From a virus: DNA of 23,033 nt. Below, piece after piece: positions 417 through 12,367 of the stretch. The notes below the pieces were generated by a model. That model worked only from the letters and a program-made list of their open reading frames with translations. It searched no databases and was not told the DNA's origin. The stretch lies in the IMG/VR virus record IMGVR_UViG_3300027777_000155, positions 1 to 23,033 of that record; one strand, written 5' to 3'. The position numbers and the translations under genes were made by a program. Within the stretch, counting starts at the first letter, position 1; every line of letters starts with the position of its first letter.

Positions 417-899
417 TTACTTCTTAGCCCAAGGTGGTGCAGCCTTGGCAGGCGCAGCGCTTGGTACTACAGACTTAAACGGTACAGACACATTTCGTGA
501 AGGGTCACCTAAAGCCTTAAAGCCTTTAATCTCGTTACCGACATACTCACCAGTACGAACGGTCAACTTGATGCCCAGGTTCCCGCCAATCAGTTGGTCG
601 GTGTCGGATACCTTACCTAAACCAATGGCTCGCATGATTTCGCCAAGCTGCTGGCGTCCAATCTCCTCGGCCTTAGTGCTGGCGTTCTTGATGTTAAGGT
701 TGCCAAACACCACCCGCCCTTGATGGCTCGGGCCGGTGACGGTGTACTTGCAGGCAATGTACTTGCCATCACCCGCTTTGGTTTCCTTCACTTCAGCGCC
801 CGTGATGGTGGCGTTGTACCAACCTTCGGGCAATGGTTCAAAGTTGCTGGTTCCAACGGGCAGCGTGTCTACGCTAAATTCTTCGTCTAAAAAAGCCAT
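417..899 (-). CDS. DUF669-family protein (phage ssDNA-binding-like)
   Basis: 160 residues. The EPLPEGWYNATI segment (residues 21-32) followed by a short beta-rich region with GKYIACKYTV and GRVVFGNLNIKN matches the DUF669 family, small phage proteins encoded next to recombination ATPases and regarded as likely single-strand DNA-binding partners. The C-terminal tail is Pro/Ala-rich and ends PPWAKK; it lacks the acidic tip of bacterial SSB. The start ATG is preceded by AAGGA at good spacing, and the gene lies 2 bases after the stop of the upstream 123-residue gene, so the two are probably translated from one message. Family assignment is from recalled pattern; the DNA-binding role is inferred from family and neighbours. 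Confidence 0.75.
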   Translation of the reverse strand: MAFLDEEFSVDTLPVGTSNFEPLPEGWYNATITGAEVKETKAGDGKYIACKYTVTGPSHQGRVVFGNLNIKNASTKAEEIGRQQLGEIMRAIGLGKVSDTDQLIGGNLGIKLTVRTGEYVGNEIKGFKALGDPSRNVSVPFKSVVPSAAPAKAAPPWAKK

Positions 900-1273: not shown

Positions 1274-1551
1274 GCTGTGTACTCCAGTGCAGTCAATTTA
1301 CTAATGCGTTCGTTAATCTCGGTAACTGACTTTTGGTAGTCAGCCATTGTTTTGATTTTCTTTGCCTCTAAAGCAGCGATTTGCTGCGCCCGAGGGTCAA
1401 AGTCTTCTGGAATTTCAATTTCAATCTCTTGCGAACACACATAAGTCTGGTGTTCGGCTTCCTCTATCTTTACGTAAAGAACAAGGTATTCGCCTTTTGG
1501 TTCCCATGAATACTTAGAAAAGTAAATATGGATTTTTGTTTTAATTTTCAT
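1270..1551 (-). CDS. Small hypothetical protein, beta N-terminus plus coiled-coil C-terminus
   Basis: 93 residues. The first half is beta-like and rich in charged and aromatic residues; the second half (about residues 53-90, RAQQIAALEAKKI... to ISKLTAL) has heptad-like spacing of leucine and isoleucine and may form a coiled coil. No family recognised. It overlaps both neighbours by ATGA junctions (1548-1551 and 1270-1273), which supports real translation as part of the recombination operon. Function unknown; a partner of the ATPase or the 123-residue protein would fit the spacing. Confidence 0.65.
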   Translation of the reverse strand: MKIKTKIHIYFSKYSWEPKGEYLVLYVKIEEAEHQTYVCSQEIEIEIPEDFDPRAQQIAALEAKKIKTMADYQKSVTEINERISKLTALEYTA

Positions 1552-2213
1552 GCCACACCCCCAATCTTTGCAATGATTTCACCAAGATCAGGCGCTTCCC
1601 ATGCACCCAGCTTGCCGGAGCGATCCTTTGCCAACCACAAGCCATCGCTATCGCACATCAAAGCACGTTGGGTGTTACCCTCGGCATCCTTTTCAACACG
1701 TAGCGCCAGAACTTCGTCAAAGAAGTAAGGCAGTGCTTGGCCTGTTTTATTGCCTGGCATAGATGGGCTATACAGCACTCGCCCCATCTCGTCTTGGGTT
1801 TTCTCCAACTTGGCAGTCATAAGCACATGGCGACCAGGGATGTCGCGGAATGCCCGAATGATGTCGGCCATCTGCTCTTGCATTGCACCGTATGCGGCGC
1901 GCGGGTCTTTATTGACCTTCTTCTCGTGGTTTAAGCAAACCTCTGCAATCTCGCTGATTGAGTCAAGGGCTACGCTCTTGTACTCAGATTCAAGAACCCA
2001 AGAATAGGCTTCCCGAAGGTCATCCATACTGGTGATTTCCAAGTAAGGAAGGTCGGCATCCTGAATGGACAACAAACCGCCCTCGGCAGACAATACAACG
2101 GGGTTTGGCAGCGTCTTAATCAGACTTGTCTTACCCGAACCAGCCTGTCCGTAGACAAGCAACTTAACACCATTGGCACTCAGGCCGCCGGTACGTTTCA
2201 ACGATATAGCCAT
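1548..2213 (-). CDS. Sak4-like AAA/RecA-fold ATPase (phage recombinase)
   Basis: 221 residues. Walker A GQAGSGKT at residues 22-29 and a hydrophobic Walker B strand ending in acidic D (SVALDS, residues 80-85) define a RecA-type P-loop core of the compact phage class (phage nucleotide-binding protein / Sak4). Sak4 proteins are short RecA relatives that promote single-strand annealing or exchange with a phage SSB-like partner; the DUF669 gene and nuclease downstream fit that module. The ATG has AAGGAG upstream at 8-base spacing. It is the first gene after the divergent control region, so expression is set by the leftward promoter there. Length and motifs agree with the family; annealase activity is inferred. 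Confidence 0.85.
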   Translation of the reverse strand: MAISLKRTGGLSANGVKLLVYGQAGSGKTSLIKTLPNPVVLSAEGGLLSIQDADLPYLEITSMDDLREAYSWVLESEYKSVALDSISEIAEVCLNHEKKVNKDPRAAYGAMQEQMADIIRAFRDIPGRHVLMTAKLEKTQDEMGRVLYSPSMPGNKTGQALPYFFDEVLALRVEKDAEGNTQRALMCDSDGLWLAKDRSGKLGAWEAPDLGEIIAKIGGVA

Positions 2214-2261
2214 GTGGCTCTCCTTCTCTGTTTGCGCTTCCGTCTGGACTCAGTTCGAAGC

Positions 2262-2279
2262 GTGCTTGCATCATAGCAC
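2262..2279. promoter_or_regulatory. Candidate operator: GTGCT-N8-AGCAC inverted repeat
   Basis: Perfect 5-bp half-sites GTGCT (2262-2266) and AGCAC (2275-2279) separated by 8 bases. Centre-to-centre spacing of half-sites is 13 bases, roughly one helical turn and a bit, as for dimeric helix-turn-helix repressors. It covers the -35 element of the rightward promoter and the -10 element of the leftward promoter, so a bound protein could block both. No cognate regulator is identified; the winged-helix gene at 6823-7047 is the only DNA-binding regulator candidate in the window. Confidence 0.4.
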
Positions 2280-2293
2280 AGGTTCGTGATACA
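2266..2293 (+). promoter_or_regulatory. Rightward early promoter for primase-helicase
   Basis: TTGCAT (-35, 2266-2271), 16-base spacer, GATACA (-10, 2288-2293). The -10 is weak alone, but the same architecture TTGCA-N17-GATA recurs before the gene at 4379 (TTGCAC, 16 bases, GATAAA). Predicted start near 2300 leaves a leader of about 30 bases before the ATG at 2329. No good Shine-Dalgarno is visible before that ATG. Confidence 0.45.
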
Positions 2294-2300
2294 GTGTCAA
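2270..2300 (-). promoter_or_regulatory. Leftward promoter for the recombination operon
   Basis: Reading the minus strand: TTGACA (-35, perfect consensus, 2295-2300), then TGC-TATGAT, an extended -10 with hexamer at 2270-2275. Spacing is 19 bases, longer than the usual 17, which the extended -10 could offset. It interleaves with the rightward promoter: the two -10/-35 sets occupy the same 35 bases. Confidence 0.5.
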
Positions 2301-2328
2301 CAACTTTTTAACAAATGATTGAAAATAA

Positions 2329-4341
2329 ATGGCAGACCTCTCAAGCATCCTTGGCGGCCCTTGGTCGCCACCAGAACAACAAGCCCCCGCCGCACCCGAC
2401 ATACAGCTAAAAGACGCAATGCTTGGTGCAGGGCTAAAGCCACCGGATGTGATCCACCTAGACGGTAAAGTCCACCGCTTTAACAGCGGCACGAAGGGCG
2501 AGAAAGGCCACGACAAGCCAGGTTGGTACATAGCCTTTAACGATGGCGTACCGGCAGGGCGCTTTGGATGCTGGCGCTCTGGCGTAGAACTTACTTGGAA
2601 GGCAGACATTGGCCGCAGCCTGACGGTGGCCGAGGAAATGGCACAGTCGCGCAGGCTATCTGAAGCTAAGGCACAGCGCGATGTGGAGCAGGCCAAGACC
2701 CGCGAAGTGGCCGCAAACACCGTAGACTTAATATGGTCGCAAGCAGGAGCCGCAAGCCCAGAACATCCCTACTTACAGCGCAAAGGCATACAGCCCAATG
2801 GCGCACGGATTACAGGTGATGGGCGTTTGATGGTGCCTCTGTATAACTCAGACGGCGAACTCTCTAGCATCCAATACATTGACCACCAAGGCGGCAAACT
2901 GTATCACCCAGGTGGGCAGACCGGCTCAATGTATTGGCTAGTTGGCAGCATGGACGACGCCAGCACTCTCTACATTGCCGAAGGCTTTGCCACAGCGGCT
3001 ACCATTGCCGAAGTCACGGGCCAGCCCTGCGCGGTGGCGTATAGCGCCAGCAACTTGGTGCCTGTGACGGGAATTTTGAAAGCAGCACATCCGGCACTGG
3101 ACATTTGCATTGTTGCCGACAATGATGCAAGCGGCGTAGGCCAGCGTTATGCCGAGCAAGCCAGTGCTAAATTTGGGGTACGCATGACAATGCCGCCGAT
3201 TGAAGGTGACGCTAATGATTACGTTAAAGCAGGGCACGATTTGGCACTGCTTTTAAAGCCCCAAATAGCAACAGACTACCTAATCCATGCCGATGGCTTT
3301 TCAGAGCAGCCAGCGCCGATTTCGTGGCTTGTGAAGCACTGGATACAGGACAAGGCATTGGTGATGGTGCATGGCCCTAGCGGTGGCGGCAAGACATTTG
3401 TGACCCTTGATTGGATGCTGCACATTGCCAGTGGTAAAGCAAGTTGGTTTGGCCACAAAGTTAAGGCAGGCAACATGGTTTACCTTGCAGGTGAAGGCCA
3501 TCACGGACTGCGAAGCAGGATAGCGGCATGGAAACACCACAACAGCGTTACAAGTCTCAATATGTGGGTCAGTAAATCAGGCGTAGACCTTAACACCGCT
3601 GAAGGGTATTTGAAAGTTTTAGAAGCGGTCAGGGCGCTCAAGATCAAGCCAAGTGTCATTACCGTGGACACCTTGCACCGATTCATGGCTGGTGATGAGA
3701 ACAGCGCCCAAGATGCCAAAACCATGCTAGACGCCTGCGCTGCGCTCATGCAAGAGTTTGATTGCACCGTTATTCTGGTTCACCACACTGGCGTCAGCGA
3801 GGAAGCCCAGCACCGTGCCCGTGGTAGCAGTGCTTGGCGTGGCGCTTTGGACATTGAGATAAGCGTGATACCTGCCAAGGGCGACAAGTCCATTGAGATC
3901 GTGCAGCGTAAGAGCAAAGACGCCGAGATGGCAGCGCCAGTCTATGTCAATCTCGAATCTGTGGCGATACTCGGCTGGTTCGATGAGGATGGAGATCAGG
4001 TCACCAGCGCAGTGGTGGTCAAAGGCGAAGCGCCAGAAGGAAAAAGCAAAGGTGATTCACTTTGTTTTTCATCATTTGAACGTGCGTGGTTTGCCACTGG
4101 TGCAGAAGATCGAGGCGGCGCACCGTACCTTACCCGCAGCGCACTTTATGAATGGGCATTGGTCAACGGTTTGAAAAACAAGAAATACACAAAGGACAGC
4201 TTGAGAGCGCAAATACCAGCAGACGGAAACAAGGGCAAGTACATAGGGCCGTTGATTGAAGAAAAGTTGATTGAAGTCCATGAGAACGGATGGCTTGTGA
4301 TTGACCCCGGCACGGCATCAGGAATGATGTTAAAAAAATAG
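2329..4341 (+). CDS. Toprim primase fused to RepA/DnaB-type replicative helicase
   Basis: 670 residues. N-terminal region to about 160 precedes a Toprim domain: YIAEGFATAATI (215-226, catalytic Glu218), IVADND (261-266) and DAND (294-297). A P-loop ATPase follows: Walker A GPSGGGKT (349-356), LAGEG (386-390), Walker B ending in D447 (PSVITVDTLHR), and VHHTG (484-488), the RepA/AAA_25 helicase pattern. A C-terminal 100 residues look like a small winged-helix tail (KKYTKDSLRAQI... to NGWLVID). It should prime and unwind DNA at the phage origin. The N-terminus lacks a clear CHC2 zinc finger, so primer synthesis may be absent or use another fold. First gene of the rightward early cluster; the start ATG lacks a clear ribosome site. 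Confidence 0.85.
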   Translation: MADLSSILGGPWSPPEQQAPAAPDIQLKDAMLGAGLKPPDVIHLDGKVHRFNSGTKGEKGHDKPGWYIAFNDGVPAGRFGCWRSGVELTWKADIGRSLTVAEEMAQSRRLSEAKAQRDVEQAKTREVAANTVDLIWSQAGAASPEHPYLQRKGIQPNGARITGDGRLMVPLYNSDGELSSIQYIDHQGGKLYHPGGQTGSMYWLVGSMDDASTLYIAEGFATAATIAEVTGQPCAVAYSASNLVPVTGILKAAHPALDICIVADNDASGVGQRYAEQASAKFGVRMTMPPIEGDANDYVKAGHDLALLLKPQIATDYLIHADGFSEQPAPISWLVKHWIQDKALVMVHGPSGGGKTFVTLDWMLHIASGKASWFGHKVKAGNMVYLAGEGHHGLRSRIAAWKHHNSVTSLNMWVSKSGVDLNTAEGYLKVLEAVRALKIKPSVITVDTLHRFMAGDENSAQDAKTMLDACAALMQEFDCTVILVHHTGVSEEAQHRARGSSAWRGALDIEISVIPAKGDKSIEIVQRKSKDAEMAAPVYVNLESVAILGWFDEDGDQVTSAVVVKGEAPEGKSKGDSLCFSSFERAWFATGAEDRGGAPYLTRSALYEWALVNGLKNKKYTKDSLRAQIPADGNKGKYIGPLIEEKLIEVHENGWLVIDPGTASGMMLKK

Positions 4342-4569: not shown

Positions 4570-4734
4570 ATGAACAAAAAACTCATCCAACTTAAAGCCA
4601 AGCTAAGAGCCGCGCAAGCGGAACTTGCTATCCGAACCCGTACAAACAACAGTGCGTCACGGGCTTACAACAAAGTTACAGCACACATTGCCGAACTGGA
4701 GGCAAAAATCAATGCTTACGAAAAAAAGATGTGA
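4570..4734 (+). CDS. Small helical protein, 54 residues
   Basis: Starts MNKKLIQLKAKLRAAQ and is Lys/Ala/Leu-rich through its whole length, likely one long helix or helical hairpin with heptad-like leucines. It starts 2 bases after the previous stop (TAA then ATG) and its last 23 bases overlap the start of the HNH gene. A GGAG lies about 20 bases upstream, too far to be a standard ribosome site, so translation probably depends on the preceding gene. No family recognised; basic charge would allow nucleic-acid contact. Confidence 0.55.
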   Translation: MNKKLIQLKAKLRAAQAELAIRTRTNNSASRAYNKVTAHIAELEAKINAYEKKM

Positions 4735-5188
4735 CGAGTTATTTGATTACCAAAATGGTGTTCTTTACAGAAAACAAAAAACACGCGGCGCGTTAATTGG
4801 TGAAATTGCTGGAAATCAACGCAAAGATGGATATTTTCATGTTCGTGTTGATGGCAGCAGACAGTTGTGGCACAGAATTATTTTTGTTATGCACTTTGGT
4901 TGGGAGCCTGAAACCGTTGATCACATTGATGGCAACCCAAGCAACAACAAAATAGAAAATTTGCGAGCCGCAACCAGATCGCAAAATCAACACAATCGTC
5001 GTCAAAACAAAAATTGTTCTTCTGGAATTAAGGGTATTTCTCTTGTTTCCAATGGTTTGTGGTGTGCGCGAATAAATGTAAAAAAACAAATTGTGTTTAA
5101 ACAATTTTTTAATGATCTTGAGCTGGCTAAGTTTGCTATTGAGGAAGCAAGAAGTAAGTATCACGGCAATTTTGCCAAACACACTTAA
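4712..5188 (+). CDS. HNH endonuclease with AP2 domain (free-standing homing type)
   Basis: 158 residues from ATG 4712. The upstream in-frame TTG at 4625 is rejected because GGAGG sits 9 bases before this ATG. HNH core: LWHR (His54), VDHIDGN (Asp70-His71), then N-x-IENLR-A-T (79-87), which is the HNH_3 pattern with HNH histidines and Asn. A C-terminal AP2-like DNA-binding domain spans about 104-155 (GIKGISLVSNGLWCARI and later EEARSKYHG). These proteins cut DNA at specific sites and spread themselves by homing. Base composition is more AT-rich than neighbours, with A/T runs, which suggests separate acquisition. It sits inside the early cluster without an obvious intron, so it looks free-standing. 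Target unknown. Confidence 0.88.
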   Translation: MLTKKRCDELFDYQNGVLYRKQKTRGALIGEIAGNQRKDGYFHVRVDGSRQLWHRIIFVMHFGWEPETVDHIDGNPSNNKIENLRAATRSQNQHNRRQNKNCSSGIKGISLVSNGLWCARINVKKQIVFKQFFNDLELAKFAIEEARSKYHGNFAKHT

Positions 5189-6699: not shown

Positions 6700-6851
6700 A
6701 CACCGAAGACGACGAGTTCAATCGCATTGAAATGGAGCAACGTGTCCGTGCTAAACAAAAAGAAATGTTTGGAATTCCGTTCATCACGCAAGAAGAACTG
6801 CAAGAACTTTTAAAAGACGAAGATGAAGTCCAGACACCACGCGATACGTGA
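6696..6851 (+). CDS. Small acidic protein, 51 residues
   Basis: Begins MNTEDDEFNRIEMEQRVRAK, strongly acidic with EELQELLKDEDEVQ near the end. AAGGAG precedes the ATG; start overlaps the upstream stop by ATGA. It overlaps the next gene by 29 bases in another frame. No family recognised; acidic small phage proteins sometimes act as protein inhibitors or DNA mimics, but nothing here proves that. Confidence 0.55.
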   Translation: MNTEDDEFNRIEMEQRVRAKQKEMFGIPFITQEELQELLKDEDEVQTPRDT

Positions 6852-7047
6852 CTTACTGGCGGCATCCGAAGATGGCCTTACGGTAACCGAAATAGCCGAG
6901 CATTTTGGCGCAACTGCTGACACTATCTGTAAGACGCTAAAAACCGTTTGCGGCGTGTACATTGACCGTTGGACGGGGCCAAACCGAGGCCAGTATGCGG
7001 CAGTCTATGTGTGTGTGGAGACGCCTGAGAACGCTCCACATCCTTAG
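6823..7047 (+). CDS. Winged helix-turn-helix DNA-binding protein
   Basis: 74 residues. Residues about 7-42 (IRDLLAASEDGLTVTEIAEHFGATADTICKTLKTV) form a helix-turn-helix with the turn near HFGA, followed by a beta wing (GVYIDRW...AAVYVCV). The fold fits a small transcription regulator or replication accessory protein. It is the last gene of the early cluster and its stop overlaps the endolysin stop from the opposite strand. It is the best candidate in the window for binding the operator near 2270, which remains untested. Weak ribosome site (GACGAAG). Confidence 0.7.
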   Translation: MKSRHHAIRDLLAASEDGLTVTEIAEHFGATADTICKTLKTVCGVYIDRWTGPNRGQYAAVYVCVETPENAPHP

Positions 7048-10487: not shown

Positions 10488-12367
10488 TATTTTATCTCCT
10501 CAACAGTTCCATCGGCTTTTTTACCTAACGTGCGCCCGTTAACCACTTTAGTTTCTACGTATTGGCTAGACGGCGATAACCCTTGCACAGCTGCTGGCGT
10601 TAAATACCGCGATTTAAAATCAGTGCGACCAGTGCCTGCACTATATTGTTTCTCTAGCCCGTTAAGTTGTCCTCCAATTAACTCTTTATAGTTAGCAACT
10701 ATACCTTTAAGTTGTTCGGGAGAAGAGGCTGCCAAAATTGTTTTCTTAAGTGCCACACGATCAGCCAACGCGCCAGTGCCTGGCACAACAGACGCAACAA
10801 TTTCGTCGGCCAAAATTTCTTTGACCGCATTAAAATTACCAGGCGCGGGTTTGCCAGTTTGTGTTTGAATATATTGAGACACGGCATTGATAGCGCGTAC
10901 ATCACCTGATTGCAACGCATCTGCGGCTTTTTCAAGTGTAGTAAAGTGATCCATTACAACGTTAAGCGAACGTACTTTATTTCCTTGTATGCCTTGGTTA
11001 AACGCTTTTACTGCTGACGTTTGTAGGCCGTAATCGCTGGCTTTAAAGTCAGGTTTCATTGCAATAACTTCATTCATTATGCGAGTTGAATTTGGACCTG
11101 TAAGCGGCGGTAAGTTACCTTCAGCAATGTTCTTTGCCGTTGCCCTGTCAGCCAATGTTAAGACTTGTTTACCTTGGATGTTACCTTGCGTTTTAGCTTT
11201 TGATGCGGCCAATACTTGATCTTCGCTAAGGCTAGACAAATTTAGTGTTGGGTTGGCTTTAATTGCCGCAACGTACATTTTGGCGTTAGAAGCATTTAAT
11301 TTATTAACAGGTATTTGGCCTGACTCTACGGGGCCACCAGGACCAAACAAAAGCGCAGAATCTGTGTCACTTAACCCTAACATAGCGCGAGCAGTTCCAG
11401 TAGGCGATTGGTTTAACGCAAATTGACCTTGAGGCCCACCACCTGCACCGGCAAGGCGGGTAACAATTTGATTGCCGTTTGCATCAACGCCGACCACATT
11501 TTGCATAGCAAGGCCGGGATGCAAGTTTCTTATGTCTCGTTGCAATTGAGCAATAACTGCTGGCGGCGCTTTATTAGCTATAGCAATTTGCAACTCGCGC
11601 TGCATTTTCATTGATTGAGATTCACCAGCCGCAAGTGCTTGGTCATACGCTTGAATGCGAGGATCAGTTGGTGGCACACCACTTTCTATTAACGCAGCGC
11701 GTTCTTGTAAAAGTTTACTTGTAGGAGACGGAGTAGGGGGTGCAGCCGGTGCGGTAAACAAAAGTTTATTATCTCTACCAACAAGCGATGCGCCAGGTGC
11801 CACAGAAACTGGGCGCATATCGGCAGCGCTTGCGCCTGCTTGAGACAATAATTGTGCGCGATCTTGTGGGGGCAATTTCAAAAGTTCTTGAACTGTACGG
11901 TCAGCTTGTTCGGGGGTGAAGATGCCATCAATTACAGAATCTTGGCCCCAAGCCCTGACGTTATCGTCAGATGGGTTTCGTGACAAATTTCGTTTGGCTT
12001 GGTCTACAAATTTAGATTGCGCGTCTTTAAGGTCAAATGCCTGTTTCTTTTTTAACGCGTCAGCAGCCTCTAATTCGCGCCGTGTTTTTTCAATGCCAGG
12101 CAATTGAGCGCCACCACCACCGGCGGCCACAAGGCCAGTCAGTTTGTTGTAATCAATTTGGCCCGTAGCTAGGTCTACTGATTTGGCATACGCATCGGCT
12201 AAAACATTTTGCGTGGCCTCTGTACGCTGGGCAGAACCAAGCTGATACTTTGCCAAAGCGTTTTGATTTTGAGCATTCTGAATCTGAGCAATTTGGCCGT
12301 ACTGGGCTATAGGGTCAGGCAACTCAATGCCTCTATAACTTAATGCGATGTTTGGATCGAGTGCCAT
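10487..12367 (-). CDS. Internal/ejection protein (gp20-like position)
   Basis: 626 residues. N-terminus MALDPNIALSYRGIELPDPIAQYGQ followed by Gln/Ala/Asn-rich helices is a recurring start of podovirus internal proteins that I recall from betaproteobacterial phages. The middle is Pro/Ala-rich (about 200-220) and the rest alternates helical and Gly/Asn-rich parts. No catalytic motif. It lies between the gp7-like gene (9-base gap) and the 799-residue protein (one-base overlap), so all three are probably made together and packaged for DNA ejection. P22 gp20 is shorter (about 470 residues). The assignment is by position and composition. Confidence 0.65.
   Translation of the reverse strand: MALDPNIALSYRGIELPDPIAQYGQIAQIQNAQNQNALAKYQLGSAQRTEATQNVLADAYAKSVDLATGQIDYNKLTGLVAAGGGGAQLPGIEKTRRELEAADALKKKQAFDLKDAQSKFVDQAKRNLSRNPSDDNVRAWGQDSVIDGIFTPEQADRTVQELLKLPPQDRAQLLSQAGASAADMRPVSVAPGASLVGRDNKLLFTAPAAPPTPSPTSKLLQERAALIESGVPPTDPRIQAYDQALAAGESQSMKMQRELQIAIANKAPPAVIAQLQRDIRNLHPGLAMQNVVGVDANGNQIVTRLAGAGGGPQGQFALNQSPTGTARAMLGLSDTDSALLFGPGGPVESGQIPVNKLNASNAKMYVAAIKANPTLNLSSLSEDQVLAASKAKTQGNIQGKQVLTLADRATAKNIAEGNLPPLTGPNSTRIMNEVIAMKPDFKASDYGLQTSAVKAFNQGIQGNKVRSLNVVMDHFTTLEKAADALQSGDVRAINAVSQYIQTQTGKPAPGNFNAVKEILADEIVASVVPGTGALADRVALKKTILAASSPEQLKGIVANYKELIGGQLNGLEKQYSAGTGRTDFKSRYLTPAAVQGLSPSSQYVETKVVNGRTLGKKADGTVEEIK

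Follow-up and report, generated by a model that had tools for sequence, protein, structure and literature searches.

Results

The window analysed here, 23,033 nucleotides long, is an IMG/VR phage contig in which an intergenic space at 2214-2328 lies between a recombination operon on the left and a replication operon on the right. The features of the locus are as follows.

417-899, minus strand: ssDNA-binding-protein-like gene, farther down the leftward operon (phrog_2300, of unknown function, 1e-38; phrog_6015, annotated 'single strand DNA binding protein', 1.5e-22)
1548-2213, minus strand: gene for a Sak4-like ssDNA annealing ATPase, first of the leftward operon (phrog_124, E 1e-56)
2214-2234, minus strand: spacer with Shine-Dalgarno AAGGAGAG, from the hairpin to the sak4 start codon, read from the sequence
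2235-2263, minus strand: leader RNA hairpin, predicted to be 5'-terminal, from covariation and a predicted fold (model R1, 44.6 bits at 2232-2265, minus strand)
2262-2279, no strand: inverted repeat GTGCT-N8-AGCAC, present and not conserved as a repeat
2266-2295, plus strand: rightward promoter, with weak -35 TTGCAT (2266-2271), 18-bp spacer, extended -10 TGA-TACAGT (2287-2295) and predicted start A2302
2270-2300, minus strand: leftward promoter, with -35 TTGACA (2300-2295), 19-bp spacer, extended -10 TGC-TATGAT (2278-2270) and predicted start A2263
2329-4341, plus strand: TOPRIM primase-helicase gene, first of the rightward operon in the window clade (phrog_2249, 1.8e-52)
4625-5188: HNH_3 endonuclease gene of the rightward operon (1.3e-15)
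6823-7047: gene for a protein of 74 aa that matches HTH_23 marginally (1.9e-5), whose product the first-pass annotation had put forward for footprinting

In the window clade the primase leader at 2302-2328 has no clear Shine-Dalgarno. The plus strand has a terminator-like hairpin at 384-414, GACCCCGG...CCGGGGTC with seven T after it, and the genes on its two sides run opposite to it.

Two interleaved divergent promoters lie within 2266-2300, as had been proposed from the sequence alone, with 2270-2295 common to both, and their overlap is reciprocal in that the -35 of each abuts or overlaps the -10 of the other. The leftward one, described beforehand as a perfect TTGACA with extended -10 TGC-TATGAT, proved to be the best sigma70-like site in the window, and has an unusually long 19-bp spacer that the earlier description did not give. 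On a simple sigma70 weight matrix built with textbook frequencies, it comes first of 45,974 window positions, and the rightward TACAGT at 2290-2295, whose TG lies at 2287-2288 and whose spacer is 18 bp, ranks 61. The TTGCAT proposed for the rightward promoter was retained, and the GATACA proposed as its -10 (2288-2293; rank 5340, final T missing) was replaced by TGA-TACAGT, in which the -10 lies two bases over. A strict promoter scan, allowing spacers of 16-18 only and requiring at least 9 of 12 matches, found neither promoter because of these spacer and match limits. Judged by alignment, both promoters are conserved in close relatives: the fixed elements are TGN-TAnnnT, on each strand, and TGTCAACAAC, and the bases between drift, with one aligned member (L047) having an unrelated leader.

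Comparison of related loci shows how often a regulator gene accompanies this arrangement. In about 105 of 174 distinct loci, with classes assigned from our own sequence patterns, a small Cro/P22-Cro-type HTH gene opens the rightward operon. P22_Cro (PF14549) is matched by one HTH type at 7.7e-19, and HTH_3 by other types; several match HTH_26 only below cut-off, and the class B representative (L053) had no Pfam match. A window-like arrangement in which an HTH gene separates sak4 from the primase occurs in Idiomarinaceae phage 1N2-2, Alteromonas phages XX1924 and PB15, Salicola phage CGphi29 and the environmental genome ct3Oc712. In the window clade the first rightward gene is the primase or a PAPS-reductase-like gene, not an HTH repressor, and searches of the window with HTH_3 and HTH_26 gave no match. 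The PAPS-reductase-like gene, called on the motif SGGRTSAYM with a PF01507 match below its cut-off, sits between the rightward promoter and the primase in some close relatives, namely L004, L007, L008, L026, L031 and others. The first-pass annotation had noted the geometry of a switch and no cI/cro-type repressor nearby; the second point is correct for the window, relatives often carry a Cro-like HTH gene at that place, and the switch idea suits those relatives better. A search confined to tyrosine integrases (PF00589) found none in the window, which is partial, or in the records of ten relatives. Subject to that partial coverage, this counts against a lysogeny switch, and a lysis-lysogeny switch is unlikely.

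The inverted repeat at 2262-2279 had been read as a single palindromic operator over both promoters, a reading staked on conservation of its half-sites across relatives. It is literally there, and its arms drift: of 49 close relatives, 5 have arms that pair throughout, 29 have one mismatch and 15 have two or three. A general dyad search found that the best dyad in the window promoter block does not exceed shuffles (p ~0.83), and dyads above mononucleotide shuffles occurred in none of 33 HTH-less loci of the primase class, in 1 of 12 loci of the PAPS class, in 38% of HTH class A and in 2 of 4 of class E. An example from HTH-bearing relatives is GTGCTTGCA...TGCAAGCAC, which spans both -35 elements. 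On this evidence from sequence, palindromic operators appear real in some relatives and not in the window, for which the palindrome was rejected as operator because the repeat drifts and the dyad does not exceed shuffles.

The strongest feature of the locus, overlooked in the first-pass annotation, is a covarying hairpin in the leftward leader. Read as RNA from 2263 to 2235, the leader is A-CGCUUC-GAA-CUG-AGUC-CAG-ACG-GAAGCG, comprising A (+1), an outer stem CGCUUC/GAAGCG, an internal loop GAA/ACG, an inner stem CUG/CAG and an apical loop AGUC. Among 50 unselected close relatives all but one have the hairpin; in these 49 the cells comprise 293 Watson-Crick, 1 G-U and 0 mismatches, and the outer-stem arms take seven forms (CGCTTC/GAAGCG, CGTTAC/GTAACG, CGTTCC/GGAACG, CGCCTC/GAGGCG, CATTAC/GTAATG, CACACC/GGTGTG and CGCTTC/GAAGTG). 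When 141 distinct loci were anchored on the loop only, pairing not being required, the cells were Watson-Crick in 819 cases, G-U in 11, A-C in 2 and of another kind in 14. That G-U outnumbers A-C when the strand of the sak4 mRNA is read (11 versus 2 cells) points, modestly, to the mRNA strand. Among 56 distinct hairpins, a set chosen by a stem finder and thus inflated in pairing, 96.2% of cells are paired versus 66.7% in shuffled sequences, and covariation is 0.711 versus 0.167 shuffled and at most 0.097 slid; the anchor-based counts are free of that bias. RNAalifold recovers the same two-stem structure unaided, and the loops are conserved where the stems vary. As judged across relatives, the helices carry compensatory base changes, by which a structured cis-regulatory RNA is recognised. 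The folding energy of the window leader by itself is not exceptional (z -1.69), and Rfam gave no match at E up to 5 within 1400-3200. Upstream of sak4 in L040 the entire hairpin is swapped for the CACACC...GGTGTG type within promoter sequence resembling that of its neighbours, which suggests a cassette exchange.

The hairpin also holds a fixed place relative to the leftward promoter. Across 157 distinct loci, the gap between the end of the -10 (TAnnnT) and the stem is exactly 7 nt in 129; in a further 19, mostly of a clade with a stem one pair longer, it is 8 nt when measured to the fixed stem frame, so that a distance of 7-8 nt accounts for 148 of 157. Since transcription usually starts 7 nt after the -10, the stem is predicted to begin at +2, with A2263 as start. 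The covariance model found a strong site in 25 of the 27 phage records searched, and comparison with sak4 positions puts one such site per record directly ahead of sak4. Phage 1N2-2 has a weak match (20 bits); XX1924, PB15 and CGphi29 have none, yet similar two-stem hairpins fold at the same place. In four unrelated phages that have Sak4 (Rhizobium RHEph06, Seurat, Moraxella Mcat32 and Iggy) the model found nothing, and in these phages other genes of its operon precede Sak4. The 60,673-base record of L237 (G018) holds two strong copies, at 12266 and 44436; this record is possibly two joined genomes. At least three HTH classes accompany each of loop types 2 to 5, and none accompanies type 1. 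The hairpin is therefore not tied to any one HTH gene, and it was rejected as an HTH operator, the loop types being common to several HTH classes.

Discussion

Patterns detected at this locus are best explained, in our judgement with somewhat better than even confidence, by overlapping promoters together with a 5'-terminal leader hairpin that protects or regulates the mRNA of the sak4 operon. Two sigma70-type extended -10 promoters would fire, the left into the sak4 and ssDNA-binding operon and the right into the primase operon. Because their geometry overlaps, polymerase would sit at only one promoter on any one DNA molecule, and both operons are expected to be early and expressed; the earlier suggestion of one polymerase at a time thus survives for a single molecule, and mutual exclusion of the recombination and replication arms, as stated, is not supported. 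The leftward transcript would start at A2263 and from nucleotide +2 fold its 5' end into the conserved two-stem hairpin, about 20 nt ahead of the start codon and with the Shine-Dalgarno left outside. Most likely the hairpin guards the 5' end against RNase E and against loss of pyrophosphate and so stabilises the recombination mRNA, and the conserved internal and apical loops may also bind a protein. In most relatives a Cro-type HTH protein, encoded by the first rightward gene, probably represses one or both promoters; the window clade lacks this gene at that place and keeps the promoters.

The main rival to protection of the 5' end, with which it can coexist, is an RNA operator, with loops that the ssDNA-binding-like protein or Sak4 would bind so as to repress translation of the operon; T4 gp32, which acts in this way on its own mRNA, is the precedent (PMC535899). 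The operon does encode ssDNA-binding and annealing proteins, the hairpin adjoins the ribosome-binding site, and conservation of loop sequence while stems vary, which simple stabilisation does not need, hints at protein binding; the Shine-Dalgarno is not inside the hairpin, however, and adjacency confounds any coevolution test, so that we regard this explanation as possible and considerably less probable than a coin toss. We hold just as tentatively the broader proposal that the hairpin represents a new family of phage RNA operators, kept as HTH repressors are swapped or vanish, and used by an ssDNA-binding or annealing protein for autogenous control of the recombination operon.

A cis-acting put- or nut-like antitermination element, loaded onto polymerase at the beginning of a long early operon, would also suit a hairpin whose internal and apical loops are conserved and which opens a transcript that is presumably early. 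Put and nut sites are present on both early arms, whereas here each genome has a single hairpin and the rightward transcript has none, and no N-like protein was identified, which leaves antitermination improbable. Quite improbable too is the model of the first-pass annotation, in which one palindromic operator makes a switch between recombination and replication in the window phage: the promoters do overlap, and relatives of HTH classes A and E have dyads over them, but the repeat of the window drifts, the window has no HTH_3 or HTH_26 match, and the candidate product of 6823-7047 is merely HTH_23-like. A role in DNA, as a single-strand initiation or origin structure beside the primase gene, would draw on the adjoining primase and recombination genes and on the capacity of single-stranded DNA of the same bases to form the hairpin. 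The locking of the hairpin at a fixed distance to the leftward -10, and intermediates that on the mRNA strand are G-U rather than A-C, make such a role highly improbable. Returning to the promoter pair with its probable 5'-protective hairpin, the finding has two implications. It adds to an environmental phage lineage a leader RNA supported by covariation, absent from Rfam 15 and tied to a predicted start site, and it offers a natural series of loci that differ by exchange or loss of Cro-like regulators and retain the overlapping promoter pair and leader hairpin.

Among known systems, the bacterial bidirectional promoters of Warman, Grainger and colleagues are alike in their pseudo-symmetric overlap and in admitting one polymerase at once. 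Those are defined by start sites 7-25 bp apart and a shared -10 (PMC10268837), whereas the phage pair has separate -10 elements and predicted starts at 2263 and 2302, about 39 bp apart and outside that range. Tests on five bidirectional E. coli promoters showed basal transcription too low for the two directions to compete, except where one of them was strongly activated (PMC12825309); these promoters share a -10 element, and their geometry differs from that of the phage pair. The lambda/P22 pR-cro type is similar in having divergent promoters and, in the relatives, a P22_Cro-family or other HTH gene after the rightward promoter, but differs in that the ten relatives searched had no tyrosine integrase, the window clade has no HTH gene there, and the promoter overlap is reciprocal. 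The leader of T4 gene 32 is likewise a structured leader of an operon encoding an ssDNA-binding protein. It consists of a pseudoknot plus unstructured sequence. Finally, 5'-terminal stem-loops are established mRNA stabilisers in E. coli (Emory 1992, Bouvet 1992 and Arnold 1998, as cited in PMC3997798). The phage leader resembles the ompA and papA leaders in carrying a hairpin within about 1 nt of the 5' end, here a predicted one, upstream of the ribosome-binding site, and differs from them in having internal and apical loop sequence that is conserved across phages.
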